From assembly GCA_019310975.1 (NCBI GenBank), contig JAFDDH010000007.1, positions 1-57,707 on the forward strand: a stretch of DNA of 57,707 nt, in the 5' to 3' direction. Below are positions 26,476-57,508 of the stretch, piece by piece. Origin of the DNA: Deltaproteobacteria bacterium (GTDB taxonomy: Bacteria > Myxococcota_A > UBA9160 > UBA4427). Position 1 is the stretch's first letter. Every line of letters begins with the position of its first letter. The notes under the pieces were generated by a model that made no database searches, was not told the origin of the DNA, and was given only the letters and a program-made list of their open reading frames with translations. The position numbers and the translations under genes are program-made.

Positions 26476-26641
26476 CTCAATCAACCTCCACGGCGAGTCG
26501 AGCCCAAGAAGCAACTCGGTCAATCAACCTCCGCGGTCAGTCGAGCCGAAGGCTCGACCCCCCAGTCGAGCCCAAGAAGCAACTCGGTCAATCACCCTCC
26601 GCGGTCAGTCGATTCGAAGGCTCGACCCCCGGTCGAGCCTT
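26476..26641. repeat. 68-bp tandem repeat with strong hairpins (bidirectional terminator-like)
   Basis: Two copies of a 68-bp unit start at 26497 and 26565 (each opens GTCGAGCCCAAGAAGCAACT). A degraded partial copy starts at about 26476. Each unit contains a hairpin: GTCGAGCC-GAA-GGCTCGAC at 26540-26558, and an 11-bp stem GAAGGCTCGAC/GTCGAGCCTTC around CCCCG at 26615-26641. The block lies between the convergent M20 peptidase and sulfotransferase genes, and the last residues of the sulfotransferase are encoded inside it. It probably ends transcription in both directions. Confidence 0.8.
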
Positions 26642-30206: not shown

Positions 30207-30394
30207 GCTTGGCTTCGGGCCAGATGGCAAAAGTTTTCCGCATATGTGGGCCGTGGGTCGCTACGTTTACTCTATCGCGCAGCCATTCGGACACCGCGGG
30301 TGCCCACCGGCAGCTCGGAGTTCCCTTCTCGTAACCATAGGTTGCCCCGGTAGGCTGCGTGAAGCCCGGCGAGCGATCGGCCGCGGGAAAGAAT

Positions 30395-30410
30395 TGGCAC
30401 GCAGCTTGCG
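30395..30410 (+). promoter_or_regulatory. Sigma-54 promoter of the AAA+/HK fusion gene
   Basis: TGGCACGCAGCTTGCG matches the -24/-12 consensus (TGGCACG-N4-TTGC) at every core position, with GG and GC ten bases apart. The predicted start is about 30421, 67 bases before the ATG at 30488. It puts the signalling island under sigma-54 and an enhancer-binding activator. Confidence 0.72.
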
Positions 30411-30487
30411 CTTCTTTGCCTCGGAGCTGTGCGCGCGCCAGCGGATTTCCAAACTGGAGGGACCGGACGGGCCCTCGTCCTGAAGCC

Positions 30488-32758
30488 ATGCTGACGATCT
30501 GGATCATCCACCGCAATCACCACCATCGAGCCGCCCTGGCCCGCATCGCGGGCGCGGGCGACAGCGCAGTGCTCGGCGGACCCGACGAGCGGCTCTTCGA
30601 ATCGGCCAGCCCGCCCGCTGTGGTGCTGCTCGGCCTCTGCGATGACTTCGAGCAGGAGCTCGAGTTCGTGCACCGCTTCGGACCCAGGCTGCGCGGCAGC
30701 GCGTGGGTGCTGCTCGGCTCCAAGGCGGATCTGCCCGAGGCCCGTCGCCTCTTCGACACGCTCTCGGCCAGCTTCCTCTCCGATCCCCCGGACCCGCTCG
30801 AGCTGCGCCGCACGTTGCGCAGCGCCCTCAAGCGCCGCAGCGCCGATTCTCTCTCGTCCCGCCAGGGCCGCGACACCCTGCGCGATCGCTTCGCGCGCTG
30901 GTTCGCCGATATCGAGCTACCCGAGCTGCTGCGAGCCATCGATCCCAGGCTCTCGGGCGTGCCGGTTCTGGTCCGCGGCGAGGAGGGCACGGGGCGCGCG
31001 CTGCTGGCCCGCTACATACACGCGTTCGGCGGTAGCGGCGAGGAGTCGTTCATCCACGTCGGCTGCCGAGGGATCTTCTCCACCGAGGAGCTTCGCGATC
31101 AGATCGAGGCGGACGGTCGACGCATGCCGGGCGATGCCTTCACGATCTTCCTCGAGGATGTCGACCGTCTCTCGCTTCCCGTGCAGAGGTGCGTGCAGGA
31201 CTGGATCGAGTTCGGGCTGCCCGACGGTGCCCTGCGCGGCGCGGGCCCTCGCTGGATCGGCAGCGCGGGCGACGACAGCGATCTGGATGTCGAGCCCGGG
31301 CTCGATCCGCGGCTCGCGGAGTCGCTCTCGGGTCTCACCATCCGCATCCCCTCGCTGCGCGAGCGACCCGGAGCCATCGAGCCCTTCGTGGCCGATACGG
31401 CATTGGACTGGTCGAACTCCCACGGCCAGCGAGCGCGCCGCTTCGACCCCGAGGCGCTGATCCTGCTCGACGCCTATCCGTGGCCGGGCAACCTGCACGA
31501 GCTCGAGGCGGTGGTTGTCCGGACGCTCTCGATTACCAGTGCCGACCCGCTGCTCTCCGTTCACCTACGCTTCCCGGGCGACAGCGGCTGGCTCGAGCAG
31601 TCCTTCGCATCCGCACCCACCCGCTTCGTCGCCGAACCCGGCCCGGAGACGAGCGAGCGCGCGTCTGTGGGCAGCCGCCCCGCAGCCGTTGAAGAGACGA
31701 TCCCCGAGGCAACTTTTGTCGACGACGAAGAGGAGGCGTGGGAGGGCGACGAGGAGGAGATTCTCGCCGCGCTCAGCACCGAGAGCGAAGACGAGCTGGC
31801 CGAGGAGGAGGAGGCAGCGCTCACCGAGGCCACCGGTGAGGTCGCAGACGCTCATCCGGTCGCAGACGCTCTCCCGGTCGCAGACGCTCTCCCGGTCGCA
31901 GACGCTCTCCCGGTCGCAGACGCTCTCCCGGTCGCAGACGCTTTGCCGGTCGCAGACGCTCTCCCGGTCGCAGACGCTTTCCCGGTCGCAGACGCTGCCG
32001 AGGTCGCCGCCTTCACGCCGGGTCCGAGTGCCGTGGACCTTGCCACATCGGCCGCCGAGGCGGTGTTGCCGCCGGCCCCGGAGCGTTCGACCTCGCTCGC
32101 CGACGAGACCGACCTGCGTCGGCTCGTGCGCGCGGTCGCCCACGAGGTCCGCAACCCGCTGGTCTCGATCCGCACGTTCTCGGAGCTGCTGCCCGACCAC
32201 TACGACGACGCCGAGTTCCGCACGCACTTCCGCGAGCTGGTCAGCCAGGACGTGGTGCGCATCGACGAAGCCGTGGGCCGATTGCAGAGTATGGTCGACC
32301 TGCCGGAGATCAAGACCGAGCCGGTCGACGTCGCGCACCTGCTGGAGACCCTGCTCGACGAGCGACGCGACGAGATCCAGGCACGCCGGCTGCTCGTCCT
32401 CAAGGAGCTCGACCACAGCGTCCCGCACGCGCTCAGCGATCCGCTGCTGCTGCGTGACGCCTTCAGCGGCCTGATCAAGCGCGCCCTGGGCCGGGTCAAG
32501 GATCGCGGCGACATCTACGTGGCCTCCAAGCACCATGCCAGCGGGCTCTCGGGCGGCCCGTCGCTGCGCGTCCTGCTTCGCTACACGGCCGGGCAAGCGG
32601 GCGATGAGGCGGTCACCGCGCCCGAGGGGCCCCATTCCGAGAACCTCGACGGCGTGATGGCGCAGACCATCGTGCACTCGCTGGGCGGCCAATACACCGA
32701 GGACGACGCGGACTCCGAGGAGTGCGTGATCGTCATCGACCTGCCGGCGCCATCGTAG
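30488..32758 (+). CDS. Fusion of degenerate sigma-54-activator AAA+ domain and histidine-kinase core
   Basis: The 756-aa protein has no phospho-acceptor Asp in its N-terminal receiver-like part (1-115). An AAA+ region like NtrC follows (about 145-330), but the Walker A reads GEEGTGRALLARYIHAFG (Arg for the catalytic Lys), Walker B reads TIFLEDVDRL and there is no GAFTGA loop; the sensor-like SLRERPGAIEPFV and YPWPGNLHELEAVVV are kept. An acidic linker and nine 6-residue VADALP-type repeats (about 452-505) lead to a HisKA helix with VAHEVRNPLVSIRTFSELL (His about 553). The HATPase part lacks the N-box Asn and the G1 DxGxG motif. It probably cannot hydrolyse ATP or autophosphorylate normally. 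It lies 52 bp upstream of an intact NtrC-type regulator. Confidence 0.85.
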   Translation: MLTIWIIHRNHHHRAALARIAGAGDSAVLGGPDERLFESASPPAVVLLGLCDDFEQELEFVHRFGPRLRGSAWVLLGSKADLPEARRLFDTLSASFLSDPPDPLELRRTLRSALKRRSADSLSSRQGRDTLRDRFARWFADIELPELLRAIDPRLSGVPVLVRGEEGTGRALLARYIHAFGGSGEESFIHVGCRGIFSTEELRDQIEADGRRMPGDAFTIFLEDVDRLSLPVQRCVQDWIEFGLPDGALRGAGPRWIGSAGDDSDLDVEPGLDPRLAESLSGLTIRIPSLRERPGAIEPFVADTALDWSNSHGQRARRFDPEALILLDAYPWPGNLHELEAVVVRTLSITSADPLLSVHLRFPGDSGWLEQSFASAPTRFVAEPGPETSERASVGSRPAAVEETIPEATFVDDEEEAWEGDEEEILAALSTESEDELAEEEEAALTEATGEVADAHPVADALPVADALPVADALPVADALPVADALPVADALPVADAFPVADAAEVAAFTPGPSAVDLATSAAEAVLPPAPERSTSLADETDLRRLVRAVAHEVRNPLVSIRTFSELLPDHYDDAEFRTHFRELVSQDVVRIDEAVGRLQSMVDLPEIKTEPVDVAHLLETLLDERRDEIQARRLLVLKELDHSVPHALSDPLLLRDAFSGLIKRALGRVKDRGDIYVASKHHASGLSGGPSLRVLLRYTAGQAGDEAVTAPEGPHSENLDGVMAQTIVHSLGGQYTEDDADSEECVIVIDLPAPS
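31841..32002. repeat. 18-bp in-frame tandem repeat, nine units
   Basis: The unit GTCGCAGACGCTCTCCCG recurs nine times in perfect 18-bp register. Changes are mainly at the fifth codon (CAT, CTC, TTG, TTC); the last unit diverges in its final codons. It encodes VADA(L/H/F)P and so extends the linker between the AAA+ and histidine-kinase parts of the fusion protein. The near-identity at the DNA level indicates recent expansion, and the copy number may vary between strains. Confidence 0.92.
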
Positions 32759-55191: not shown

Positions 55192-55926
55192 TCATCGCTC
55201 CTCGATCCTGCTCCAGACATCCGCACCGTCCAGGTAGGCGAGGGTCCGCGGGCAGCTGTCCGCCTCGCCGGCATCCCGCGCACGTGCCAGCAGACGCAGA
55301 TCGGCCGCCGTATCGAGGTCGAAGCTGCGCTCGAGCAGCTTCACACCCAGTCCAAGCTGGCCGGCGTTCGCCATCGTTTCCTCGAGCACGCTGCCGGTGC
55401 TCATCGGGTGATCGAAGAGCCCTGTCTGGGGCGACCTCATTCCCACCAGCCCGTAGCCGCCATCGCGGTCGGGTGAGATGACCAGATCGTGGTCCTCGAG
55501 CTCGGCGAGCGCCGCTTCGAAATGCGATCGAGAGAGCAGCGGATTGTCGCTGCCGCGCAGCAGGATGCGCTGCGCGCCGGCCGCCGCGGCCTCGGCGGCG
55601 GCGTGGCCCATGCGTTCGCCGAGTCCCGCCCCGCGCTGCGCGATGACGCGAAAGCCCGCGGGAACGCGCTGCGCGATCTCCGCGCAGGACTCGGCGGGAT
55701 GTAGACACAGCACTGCGTCCAGGTCGAGCCCGTGCGCGATCTGCGCCGTGGCCTCGAGGACGTCGTCGAGCATGTGGCCATAGAGGGCGGCGGCCTGCTC
55801 GGGGGTGAGCGGTGGCGACATGCGCGTCTTCACCAGACCCGCGCGGGGCGCCTTCGCGAAGACCATCACACTGCCGGCCCGCTGGACCCAGGCGCTCTCG
55901 CCGGTGGCGGCATCGACGGTCGGCAT
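55192..55926 (-). CDS. DUF2064/GT-A-like glycosyltransferase
   Basis: The 244-aa protein from the ATG at 55926 belongs to the TIGR04282/DUF2064 group of GT-A-fold nucleotidyl/glycosyltransferase-like proteins. Motifs: RAGSVMVFAKAPRAGLVKTRMSPPLTPEQAAALY, GLGERMGHAAAEA, RILLRGSDNPLLSRSHFEAALAELEDHDLVISPDRDGGYGLVGM and the C-terminal FDLDTAADL. Related proteins occur in arsenosugar or other secondary pathways; the role here is unknown. It is 4 bp downstream of another nucleotidyltransferase-like gene. Confidence 0.88.
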   Translation of the reverse strand: MPTVDAATGESAWVQRAGSVMVFAKAPRAGLVKTRMSPPLTPEQAAALYGHMLDDVLEATAQIAHGLDLDAVLCLHPAESCAEIAQRVPAGFRVIAQRGAGLGERMGHAAAEAAAAGAQRILLRGSDNPLLSRSHFEAALAELEDHDLVISPDRDGGYGLVGMRSPQTGLFDHPMSTGSVLEETMANAGQLGLGVKLLERSFDLDTAADLRLLARARDAGEADSCPRTLAYLDGADVWSRIEER

Positions 55927-55930
55927 GCGC

Positions 55931-56965
55931 CTAGTCCCCGCCAGCGCCGTCGGAATCCGCCGTGGCGGAGGCGTTGGCGCTGCCCGACACGAGCGGCAGA
56001 GGCCCGTAGACGGCCTCCGTACGCTGCTGCTGCTTCTCCGACCACCCCGCGAAGCCGGCCTGAACGGCGTCGTACTCCTGCTCGGTGTCGACATCGATCG
56101 CGCAGCCGCCCGCCTCGGTGATCACGAAGCGGAAGCGCGTGTCGAGGATGCCGCTGATCACCCTCTCGTTGAGTTCGATGCTGACGAGCCCACGCATCCA
56201 GTCCGCCAATCGATGCCACTTCCAACGGTCCAGCAGCCCGGCCAGGTGCATGACGCCGTAGAGGCTCACGATCAGCGGCCCGGCCGCACCAGAGAAGAAG
56301 AGCTTCCAGGCCAGCACCGCCATATGCCAGAACTCACGCTGGTGGCGATGCTCGTACATGTCCTCGATCCGCCAGCGGTTGCCAAGCCGCGCGGGGGCCG
56401 CATAGTGGAGATTGCTCTGCCGGAGCCTTCCCTCACGCAGGTTGAAATAGGCCACCTCGATGCCCGGCTGGCCGGGCTCGGTGGGTTTGAAGTCCACCAG
56501 GGATGCCTCGGGAACCAGGCCGGCCGCGTAATCGCAGTCCTCGAGGGCCTGGCTCTGGCGTACGAAGGCGGAGATCTCCTGGGGCGTCGCGAAGGGCAGA
56601 TCACCCGAGAGATAAAGGACGGACCTGTCGACCTCGTCCCCGAGCGGGTCGCGGCCCGCCTCGGGATCGCGCGAGAGGATGCACCGGTAGGTCTCCCAGG
56701 CGTTCTCGAGTAGGTTGCGACCCTGCTCGACGATGAAGAGTGGCTTGCTGAGCTGCTTGCTGAGCTCGGGATCGGCGAAGACGTCTTCGAGACGACGCCG
56801 ATTGCCGACCACCCAGACCTCGGACACCTCGGGGACGCGTTGCAGCGTCGCCACGGTGCTGGCCACCATCGATCGTCCACCCACCTCGAGGAAGACCTTG
56901 CTCTCGCCATAGATCGCCTTGGCGGCGCGGGTGTCGCCCGCGGTCACGATGGCGGGTACCCCCAC
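55931..56965 (-). CDS. MobA-like NTP-transferase domain protein
   Basis: The 344-aa protein has a nucleotidyltransferase GT-A fold: GVPAIVTAGDTRAAKAIYGESKVFLEVGGRSMVASTVATLQ (a G-rich loop, with the usual LAAGxGxRM replaced by VTAGDTRAAKAI), VLYLSGDLPFATPQEISAFV (metal Asp) and YAAGLVPEASLVDF. The middle has hydrophobic stretches (MAVLAWKLFFSGAAGPLIVSLYGVMHLAG). C-terminal motif: FVITEAGGCAIDVDTEQEYDAVQ. It probably transfers a nucleotide or sugar; substrate unknown. 4-bp gaps to the dodecin gene upstream and the DUF2064 gene downstream imply one operon. Confidence 0.82.
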   Translation of the reverse strand: MGVPAIVTAGDTRAAKAIYGESKVFLEVGGRSMVASTVATLQRVPEVSEVWVVGNRRRLEDVFADPELSKQLSKPLFIVEQGRNLLENAWETYRCILSRDPEAGRDPLGDEVDRSVLYLSGDLPFATPQEISAFVRQSQALEDCDYAAGLVPEASLVDFKPTEPGQPGIEVAYFNLREGRLRQSNLHYAAPARLGNRWRIEDMYEHRHQREFWHMAVLAWKLFFSGAAGPLIVSLYGVMHLAGLLDRWKWHRLADWMRGLVSIELNERVISGILDTRFRFVITEAGGCAIDVDTEQEYDAVQAGFAGWSEKQQQRTEAVYGPLPLVSGSANASATADSDGAGGD

Positions 56966-56969
56966 GCGG

Positions 56970-57182
56970 CTAACCGTCGCCTTCCTCGAGGAGGAAGATC
57001 ACTTGCAGGGTCACGAGGAACTCGGTGATGCGCCCCTCCTCGACCTTCGCCTTCTCGTCGATCACCTTGATGCCCGTGATACCGCGGAGCGTCATGCTGG
57101 CCCGCTCCAACCCCAGCTCGGCGGCATGCTGCCAGCCGTCCGGGGACGCGGAGGTGATTGTGGAGACCGATGCAATCGCCAT
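56970..57182 (-). CDS. Dodecin-family protein (copy 1)
   Basis: The 70-aa protein has dodecin form: VSTITSASPDGWQHAAELGLERASMTLRGITGIKVIDEKAKVEEGRITEFLVTLQVIFLLEE. Dodecins are small dodecameric flavin/CoA-binding proteins. In flavin-binding members a Trp precedes the 'FEV' strand; here the region is GITGIKV, so that Trp is Gly. It may bind another ligand or none. It lies 4 bp upstream of the NTP-transferase gene. Confidence 0.85.
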   Translation of the reverse strand: MAIASVSTITSASPDGWQHAAELGLERASMTLRGITGIKVIDEKAKVEEGRITEFLVTLQVIFLLEEGDG

Positions 57183-57190
57183 GGCCTGTC

Positions 57191-57257
57191 CTTGCTTGTC
57201 TTTTCTCGTCTTTGTGTGTCTTTGCGTGTCTTTGCGTGTCTTTGCGTGTCTTTGCAG
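57191..57257. repeat. 10-bp tandem repeat, about seven units
   Basis: Units of the form TTTGCGTGTC recur in exact 10-bp register; three central copies are identical and the flanking ones are degraded. The block is in the 104-bp gap between the two dodecin genes (5' of copy 1). The 10-bp period matches the DNA helical repeat. Confidence 0.88.
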
Positions 57258-57286
57258 ACAGTCGGCGCGCAGAGCGCGCCAGACCT

Positions 57287-57508
57287 CTACCAGTGCTGAT
57301 CGAGCGGTGGCGCCACGTCGAAGATCAGCCGCAGCCGGACCCGATACTCGACGATTTGGTCACAATCGATCTTGATGGACTTCTCGGTCACCTCGATGCC
57401 CCGGATCCCGCGCAGCGTCTCGTTGGCCCGCTCGACCACGCCGCGTGCGGCCGCATCGAAGCTCACGCTCGACGAGCCGATGATCTCGCTGACCTTGCTG
57501 ACCCACAT
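57287..57508 (-). CDS. Dodecin-family protein (copy 2)
   Basis: From the ATG at 57508 (AAGGAG upstream) the product is 73 aa: KVSEIIGSSSVSFDAAARGVVERANETLRGIRGIEVTEKSIKIDCDQIVEYRVRLRLIFDV. It also has Gly (GIRGIEV) where flavin-binding dodecins have Trp. It is a diverged paralogue of copy 1 and lies upstream on the same strand. Copies could form separate or mixed dodecamers. Confidence 0.85.
   Translation of the reverse strand: MWVSKVSEIIGSSSVSFDAAARGVVERANETLRGIRGIEVTEKSIKIDCDQIVEYRVRLRLIFDVAPPLDQHW

Follow-up and report, generated by a model that had tools for sequence, protein, structure and literature searches.

A tandem pair of dodecin genes lacking the flavin-stacking residues lies beside a class-wide nucleotidyltransferase-like gene in the UBA9160 class

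The window considered here is a stretch of 57,707 nucleotides that constitutes an entire contig (JAFDDH010000007.1) of a 5.35-Mb draft genome. Four genes lie near one of its ends, all on the minus strand and arranged 5′ to 3′ as DodA, DodB, NTT and a TIGR04282 gene. DodA (57287..57508) encodes a dodecin-family protein of 73 amino acids that matches PF07311 at 66.6 bits (cut-off 22.5), and DodB (56970..57182) encodes a second dodecin-family protein, of 70 amino acids, that matches the same profile at 56.6 bits. NTT (55931..56965) has a GTG start and encodes 344 amino acids with a match to NTP_transf_3 (PF12804, MobA-like) at 31.9 bits (cut-off 27). The last gene (55192..55926) encodes a CofC-like protein of 244 amino acids when its ATG start is taken (a longer frame is open from 56094), and this protein scores 90.8 bits against DUF2064 (cut-off 25.8) and 161.4 bits against TIGR04282 (cut-off 134), which makes it a member of the latter family. 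Gaps of 4 nt each separate DodB from NTT and NTT from the TIGR04282 gene. These positions, families and short gaps had been proposed in a sequence-only reading of the window, and the frames and profile scores bear them out; to them can be added a second change in the dodecin pocket, where Gln is replaced by Arg in DodA and by Leu in DodB, and the recurrence of the arrangement in 28 relatives.

The spacer between DodA and DodB (57183..57286) is 104 nt long, compared with less than 100 nt in 27 of the 28 relatives, and holds a 10-bp tandem repeat of 6.9 copies (57187-57255). Other tandem arrays of the window are located at 2161-2233 (14-bp unit, 5.1 copies), at 26496-26639 (68-bp unit, 2.1 copies) and at 31840-31996, where an 18-bp unit repeated 8.7 times encodes ADALPV hexapeptide repeats within a regulator-like frame (30359-32758). 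The contig ends at 57707, so that 199 nt of sequence can be read 5′ of DodA. On the minus strand no promoter was picked up by a sigma-70 consensus scan, the single promoter-like site lying on the plus strand within NTT; a terminator scan gave no hit, and Rfam gave no match at gathering cut-offs.

DodA is predicted by AlphaFold2 to fold as strand-helix-strand-strand (pLDDT 87), and its PDB matches at E≤0.001 number 28, all of them dodecins by title. Both proteins stay below the cut-offs of the NCBIfam dodecin equivalogs NF043052 (41.5/33.9 bits against 75) and NF041389 (40.1/19.6 bits against 100). In a tree of dodecins, DodA and DodB each form one clade (support 99/99 and 100/99, which is rough, as the alignment has 75 columns only and the bootstrap had not settled). 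Within the same limits a recent local duplication is disfavoured by the two separate clades, and from their sequences DodA and DodB are to be regarded as old paralogues. The dodecins evolve more slowly than their neighbour, with mean protein distances of 0.30 (DodA) and 0.26 (DodB) against 0.46 for NTT. Across 23 loci these distances are correlated with those of NTT (r 0.62 for DodA and 0.60 for DodB, with none of 999 permutations as high). The correlation between DodA and DodB themselves (r 0.43) is lower than that of either with NTT or with the TIGR04282 protein, and the correlations therefore lend co-assembly of the two dodecins no support.

The AlphaFold2 model of NTT (pLDDT 89) is that of a nucleotidyltransferase of the GT-A type carrying additional residues, most of them helical. 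Its closest fold, clear of the next match, is TTHA0179 (2dpw), a hypothetical transferase of Thermus thermophilus (Z 23.3, rmsd 2.5, 227 of 231 residues, 22% identity), from which it differs by about 70 residues in the aligned range that have no partner there; the next-best match reaches Z 18.3, and structures of TarI, GlmU, IspD and CobY follow. A literature search on TTHA0179 found no paper among the matches listed. Five residues (K23, D122, N185, D291 and D293), which we take to be the GT-A active site by analogy with familiar motifs, are invariant in 22 NTTs, in an alignment that omits five NTTs truncated at contig ends as well as L039 and L040, whose start or frame is unclear; L037, L050 and L052 were omitted from a further alignment (A4). 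Given the modelled GT-A fold and the invariant residues, NTT is probably an active nucleotidyltransferase. Against the NCBIfam models for MobA, IspD, CofC, MocA and KdsB it scores 12.4-19.9 bits, below cut-offs of 105-255.

Two more specific assignments were considered and rejected. CobY (cobinamide-phosphate guanylyltransferase), which is represented among the fold matches by 3rsb, is disfavoured because the nucleotide-loop pathway to which it belongs is scarce, CobS occurring in 2 of 60 genomes searched and CobU over its cut-off in 3 of 60; CobS was not found in the window's draft genome. The F420 enzyme CofC was rejected for both NTT and the 55192 gene, as a CofC over the cut-off adjoins cofD elsewhere, and the protein of 55192-55926, a member of the glycosyltransferase-like TIGR04282/CofC family with the PDB relatives 3cgx and 7p97, scores 73.5 bits against TIGR03552 (F420 CofC), below the cut-off of 105. 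Further, no cofD is seen in a Nitrospinota MAG (L201, a draft of unstated completeness), the only genome beyond the phylum in which a relative of NTT was detected; this relative has 36% identity and adjoins a zinc-dependent phospholipase C gene (L201:4980-6820).

The relatives found by way of NTT are uncultured and mostly labelled Myxococcota, Myxococcales or 'Deltaproteobacteria', with UBA9160 and UBA4427 among the names; the group is here called the UBA9160 class, which we take to be its GTDB class name. When 97 genomes including the window's own were searched with PF07311, 42 had a dodecin, and the DodA-DodB pair was present in 28 genomes besides the window's (29 in total, a count that may be up to three too high, as the dodecin contigs of G006, G007 and G047 are possibly mis-binned). 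Each of these three genomes has a second NTT contig: the copies L134 (G007) and L133 (G047) have no adjoining dodecin pair, G006:C456 begins inside NTT, and L056 of G047 clusters with another genus in the NTT tree; the second copies point to either mis-binning or paralogues. Presence of the pair is all or none, in that no orphan DodA or DodB was found in the genomes searched; seven weak matches seen singly in the class belong to dodecins of other types. Among 377 genomes of the phylum, 83 have a dodecin, and tandem dodecin pairs are confined to the UBA9160 class. A plasmid search with DodB yielded four records, all below 60% identity, and no such locus appeared among the titles listed in literature searches on dodecins, on TTHA0179/DUF2064/TIGR04282 and on UBA9160 (the best 10 of 1,839 for one topic; 15 of 38 for calcium dodecin/SecE2).

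The sequence-only reading had staked its interpretation on the neighbourhood being conserved, and this part has stood, since all 28 pair-bearing relatives keep DodA-DodB-NTT in one direction (NTT is cut by a contig end in five). With starts as chosen, DodB and NTT are separated by -1 to 10 nt in 18 relatives and by 23-145 nt in the remaining ten. The TIGR04282 gene lies downstream in all 22 relatives whose contig extends far enough, and in 20 of these, with the frames as chosen, NTT and TIGR04282 stand about 0.5-1.2 kb apart. The intervening frame is YgfZ/GcvT in the seven loci that were read, one of which was scanned with profiles (GCV_T, 117 bits). Upstream of DodA the neighbour varies: in 13 of the 28 it is a divergently oriented gene with no Pfam family, in five a gene of the metallo-beta-lactamase fold, and in three more the nearest common gene comes from either of two further clusters and lies as much as 3 kb away (LPG_synthase_TM is one of them); in the remaining relatives this side is cut by a contig end or has no cluster.

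NTT itself is far more widespread than the pair, being found at E≤1e-15 in 82 of 90 genomes of the class and in none of 287 other genomes of the phylum, and 53 class genomes have NTT without the dodecin pair. Across much of the class the order NTT, ygfZ, TIGR04282 is kept as a syntenic block, both with dodecins and without them, and genes for a porin, P-II and glnA often come next. Pair-free neighbourhoods were compared at 40 loci (from 38 of the 53 genomes, plus two second copies); 35 of them continue with the TIGR04282 gene and 31 have ygfZ, contig ends cutting short some of the others, and one genome (G013) shows no TIGR04282 gene in the block although its contig continues to glnA. When presence of the dodecins is mapped on a tree of 67 NTTs (L060 and L046 were excluded as too short), 13 changes are needed, at least seven of them forced by well-supported branches. 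One loss can be read from the DNA: G029, a draft with 9% contamination, lacks the pair in a genus whose other eight searched genomes all carry it, and it retains collinear remnants. These comprise, in order, sequence preceding DodA, the 3′ end of DodA together with the spacer and the opening codons of DodB, a fragment from further along DodB, and NTT. As remnants of both genes persist, both were lost there by deletion. The distance correlation among DodA, DodB and NTT fits vertical descent with repeated loss, and the pair gives the impression of an accessory that is lost as a unit from beside a conserved NTT block.

A block that is syntenic with or without dodecins means that the adjacency could simply be inherited. 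On that account, which is a possible one if rather doubtful, the pair serves some unrelated purpose, such as the general buffering of a metal or cofactor, and has stayed beside NTT because the block rarely rearranges; the patchiness of the pair along a class-wide NTT, with its 13 changes, speaks for it. The two flanks of the pair behave differently, however, since the gene upstream of DodA differs between lineages while the NTT side is unbroken in all 28 relatives, and this counts against pure inheritance of the adjacency. The block is also not immune to change, as ygfZ is gone from it in the window's genome, G008 and G015 (each of which has a YgfZ match elsewhere), yet DodB and NTT are split in none of the 28 and lie within a few nucleotides of each other in 18.

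The nature of the cargo can be approached from the dodecin pocket. Its two relevant positions are Trp37 and Gln56, the latter being a glutamine with a role in flavin binding. Flavins are described as held between tryptophans in dodecins (PMC7414021), a tryptophan is shown to be part of the dodecin binding site (PMC3743158), Trp39 is named as a flavin-binding residue of Rv1498A (PMC8044443), and a mycobacterial dodecin is presented as a flavin store (PMC12855090); elsewhere the fold of a flagellar protein is compared with that of dodecin (PMC11482838). Alignment with 6r1e, 2vxa and 4b2j confirms that Gly takes the place of Trp in both proteins of the window, as had been noticed from the letters. 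The window's DodA has Gly37 and Arg56 together with Trp2 and a C-terminal Trp73, and its DodB has Gly37 and Leu56 together with Trp17. Among 29 DodA and 29 DodB sequences, Trp37 and Gln56 occur in none of the 58: position 37 is Gly in 27 DodA (Glu in two) and in 27 DodB (Ser and Arg in one each), and position 56 is Arg in all DodA and Leu in 24 DodB. The family alignments (L063 was excluded from that of DodB) show other tryptophans to be conserved, namely Trp73 in 27 and Trp2 in 23 of the 29 DodA, and Trp17 in all 29 DodB.

The same alignment included 32 other dodecins of the phylum, which are those with loci and mostly the best-scoring rather than every dodecin of the phylum. Trp37 and Gln occur together in 21 of these, and the 11 without Trp37 all carry Arg in place of Gln, eight with Ile/Val and Arg like the calcium dodecin and three with Gly37, Trp39 and Arg56. 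Dodecins without the tryptophan are thus already known and are not unusual in themselves (11 of 32 here, and 3onr). The tie between Trp37 and Gln is not absolute, as six of seven further, weakly matching dodecins of the class have Trp, with Gln in one of the six and His or Tyr in the other five. In six loci (L242 and L244-L248, from G063, G068, G013, G054, G038 and G061) the dodecin domain is situated towards the C-terminus of an open frame 226-258 amino acids long, with Trp kept in five and His or Tyr at the Gln position in five; these may constitute a fusion family in the UBA9160 class.

Several flavin dodecins (H. salinarum 2cc6/4b2j, H. halophila 2vxa, S. coelicolor 6r1e and T. thermophilus 2cz8) have PF07311 in common with DodA and DodB and the predicted fold in common with DodA. 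The two proteins for their part lack Trp37 and Gln56, and they are encoded by adjacent paralogues that share a gene row with nucleotidyltransferase-like genes. As Trp and Gln are found in none of the 58 sequences, classical flavin stacking by DodA and DodB appears very unlikely. A flavin or deazaflavin (F420) might still be bound in another mode, by way of Trp2, Trp73 or Trp17 or of none of them, and the conservation of these tryptophans would suit such a mode. The cofactor is probably at hand, since gene content makes F420 synthesis in the class probable: 80 of the 97 genomes have cofD, all within the class (80 of 90, 76 of them over the cut-off, against none of seven outside), and CofC is over its cut-off in 73 of 97. 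Yet both pocket residues are absent, and cofD is independent of the pair, as 24 of the 29 pair-bearing class genomes have it and so do 56 of the 61 others; the window's genome carries cofD and an over-cut-off CofC side by side on another contig (G000:C321:5626-7154), and Trp17 is found in the calcium dodecin 3onr too. Binding of this kind is accordingly judged unlikely.

Among the closest dodecins are three from outside the UBA9160 class, of the 'GVWV/GAWV' type (L004, L222 and L223), which have Gly37 and Arg56; DodB joins them with support of 90/83 and DodA joins the whole group with 98/91, the alignment being short and the support rough. They keep a Trp at +2, where DodA has E/D/Q/A and DodB K/Q/R/H/E, and each is the sole dodecin of its genome, in contrast to the paired DodA and DodB. 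Storage of metal as in a calcium dodecin, after the title of 3onr (Rv0379/SecE2), is distinctly improbable: 3onr is the top PDB match of DodA (55.6 bits), and likewise lacks Trp37 and has Arg for Gln, but the 3onr-like dodecins of the phylum (8 of 32) form a clade apart from DodA and DodB, and the best PDB matches of DodB are dodecins of the Trp type.

The reading that we tentatively prefer, while giving it somewhat less than an even chance, is that DodA and DodB are paired non-flavin dodecins that co-assemble or form partner shells, and that store or buffer a small molecule linked to NTT. The two proteins would act as a pair, probably in one mixed hollow shell of the dodecin type or in two partner shells, and with the Trp/Gln flavin sandwich lost their cargo would be something other than a stacked flavin. 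Their genes would head an operon with NTT and, usually by way of ygfZ, the TIGR04282 protein. The likeliest role would be that of a store or buffer for a small-molecule product or substrate of NTT, and the pair would be an accessory, as NTT persists where the pair is gone. Here we infer four things, namely transcription as an operon, co-assembly, the identity of the ligand and its link to NTT. The proposal made from the sequence alone, of a nucleotide-linked ligand made or used by the transferases, gains from the neighbourhood kept in 28 of 28 relatives and from the absence of Trp and Gln in all 58 sequences, and loses from the unequal distribution of NTT (82 of 90 genomes) and the pair (29 of 90) and from a block that is syntenic anyway; it is a fair hypothesis, though no more than a possible one. 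A narrower version, in which a heteromeric DodA/DodB shell with enlarged, Trp-free pockets holds the nucleotide-activated product or phosphorylated substrate of NTT, is unlikely. The most defensible description is that of an accessory, paired dodecin of non-flavin type that travels with a class-wide nucleotidyltransferase.

If the heteromeric shell were borne out, an activated intermediate would have a protein store of its own, encoded beside the synthetase that makes it. The locus offers a natural, slowly changing dodecin pair whose fixed enzyme neighbour narrows the search for ligands of non-flavin dodecins, and close relatives in which the pair has disappeared provide natural controls. It also draws attention to a class-wide nucleotidyltransferase without a named function.
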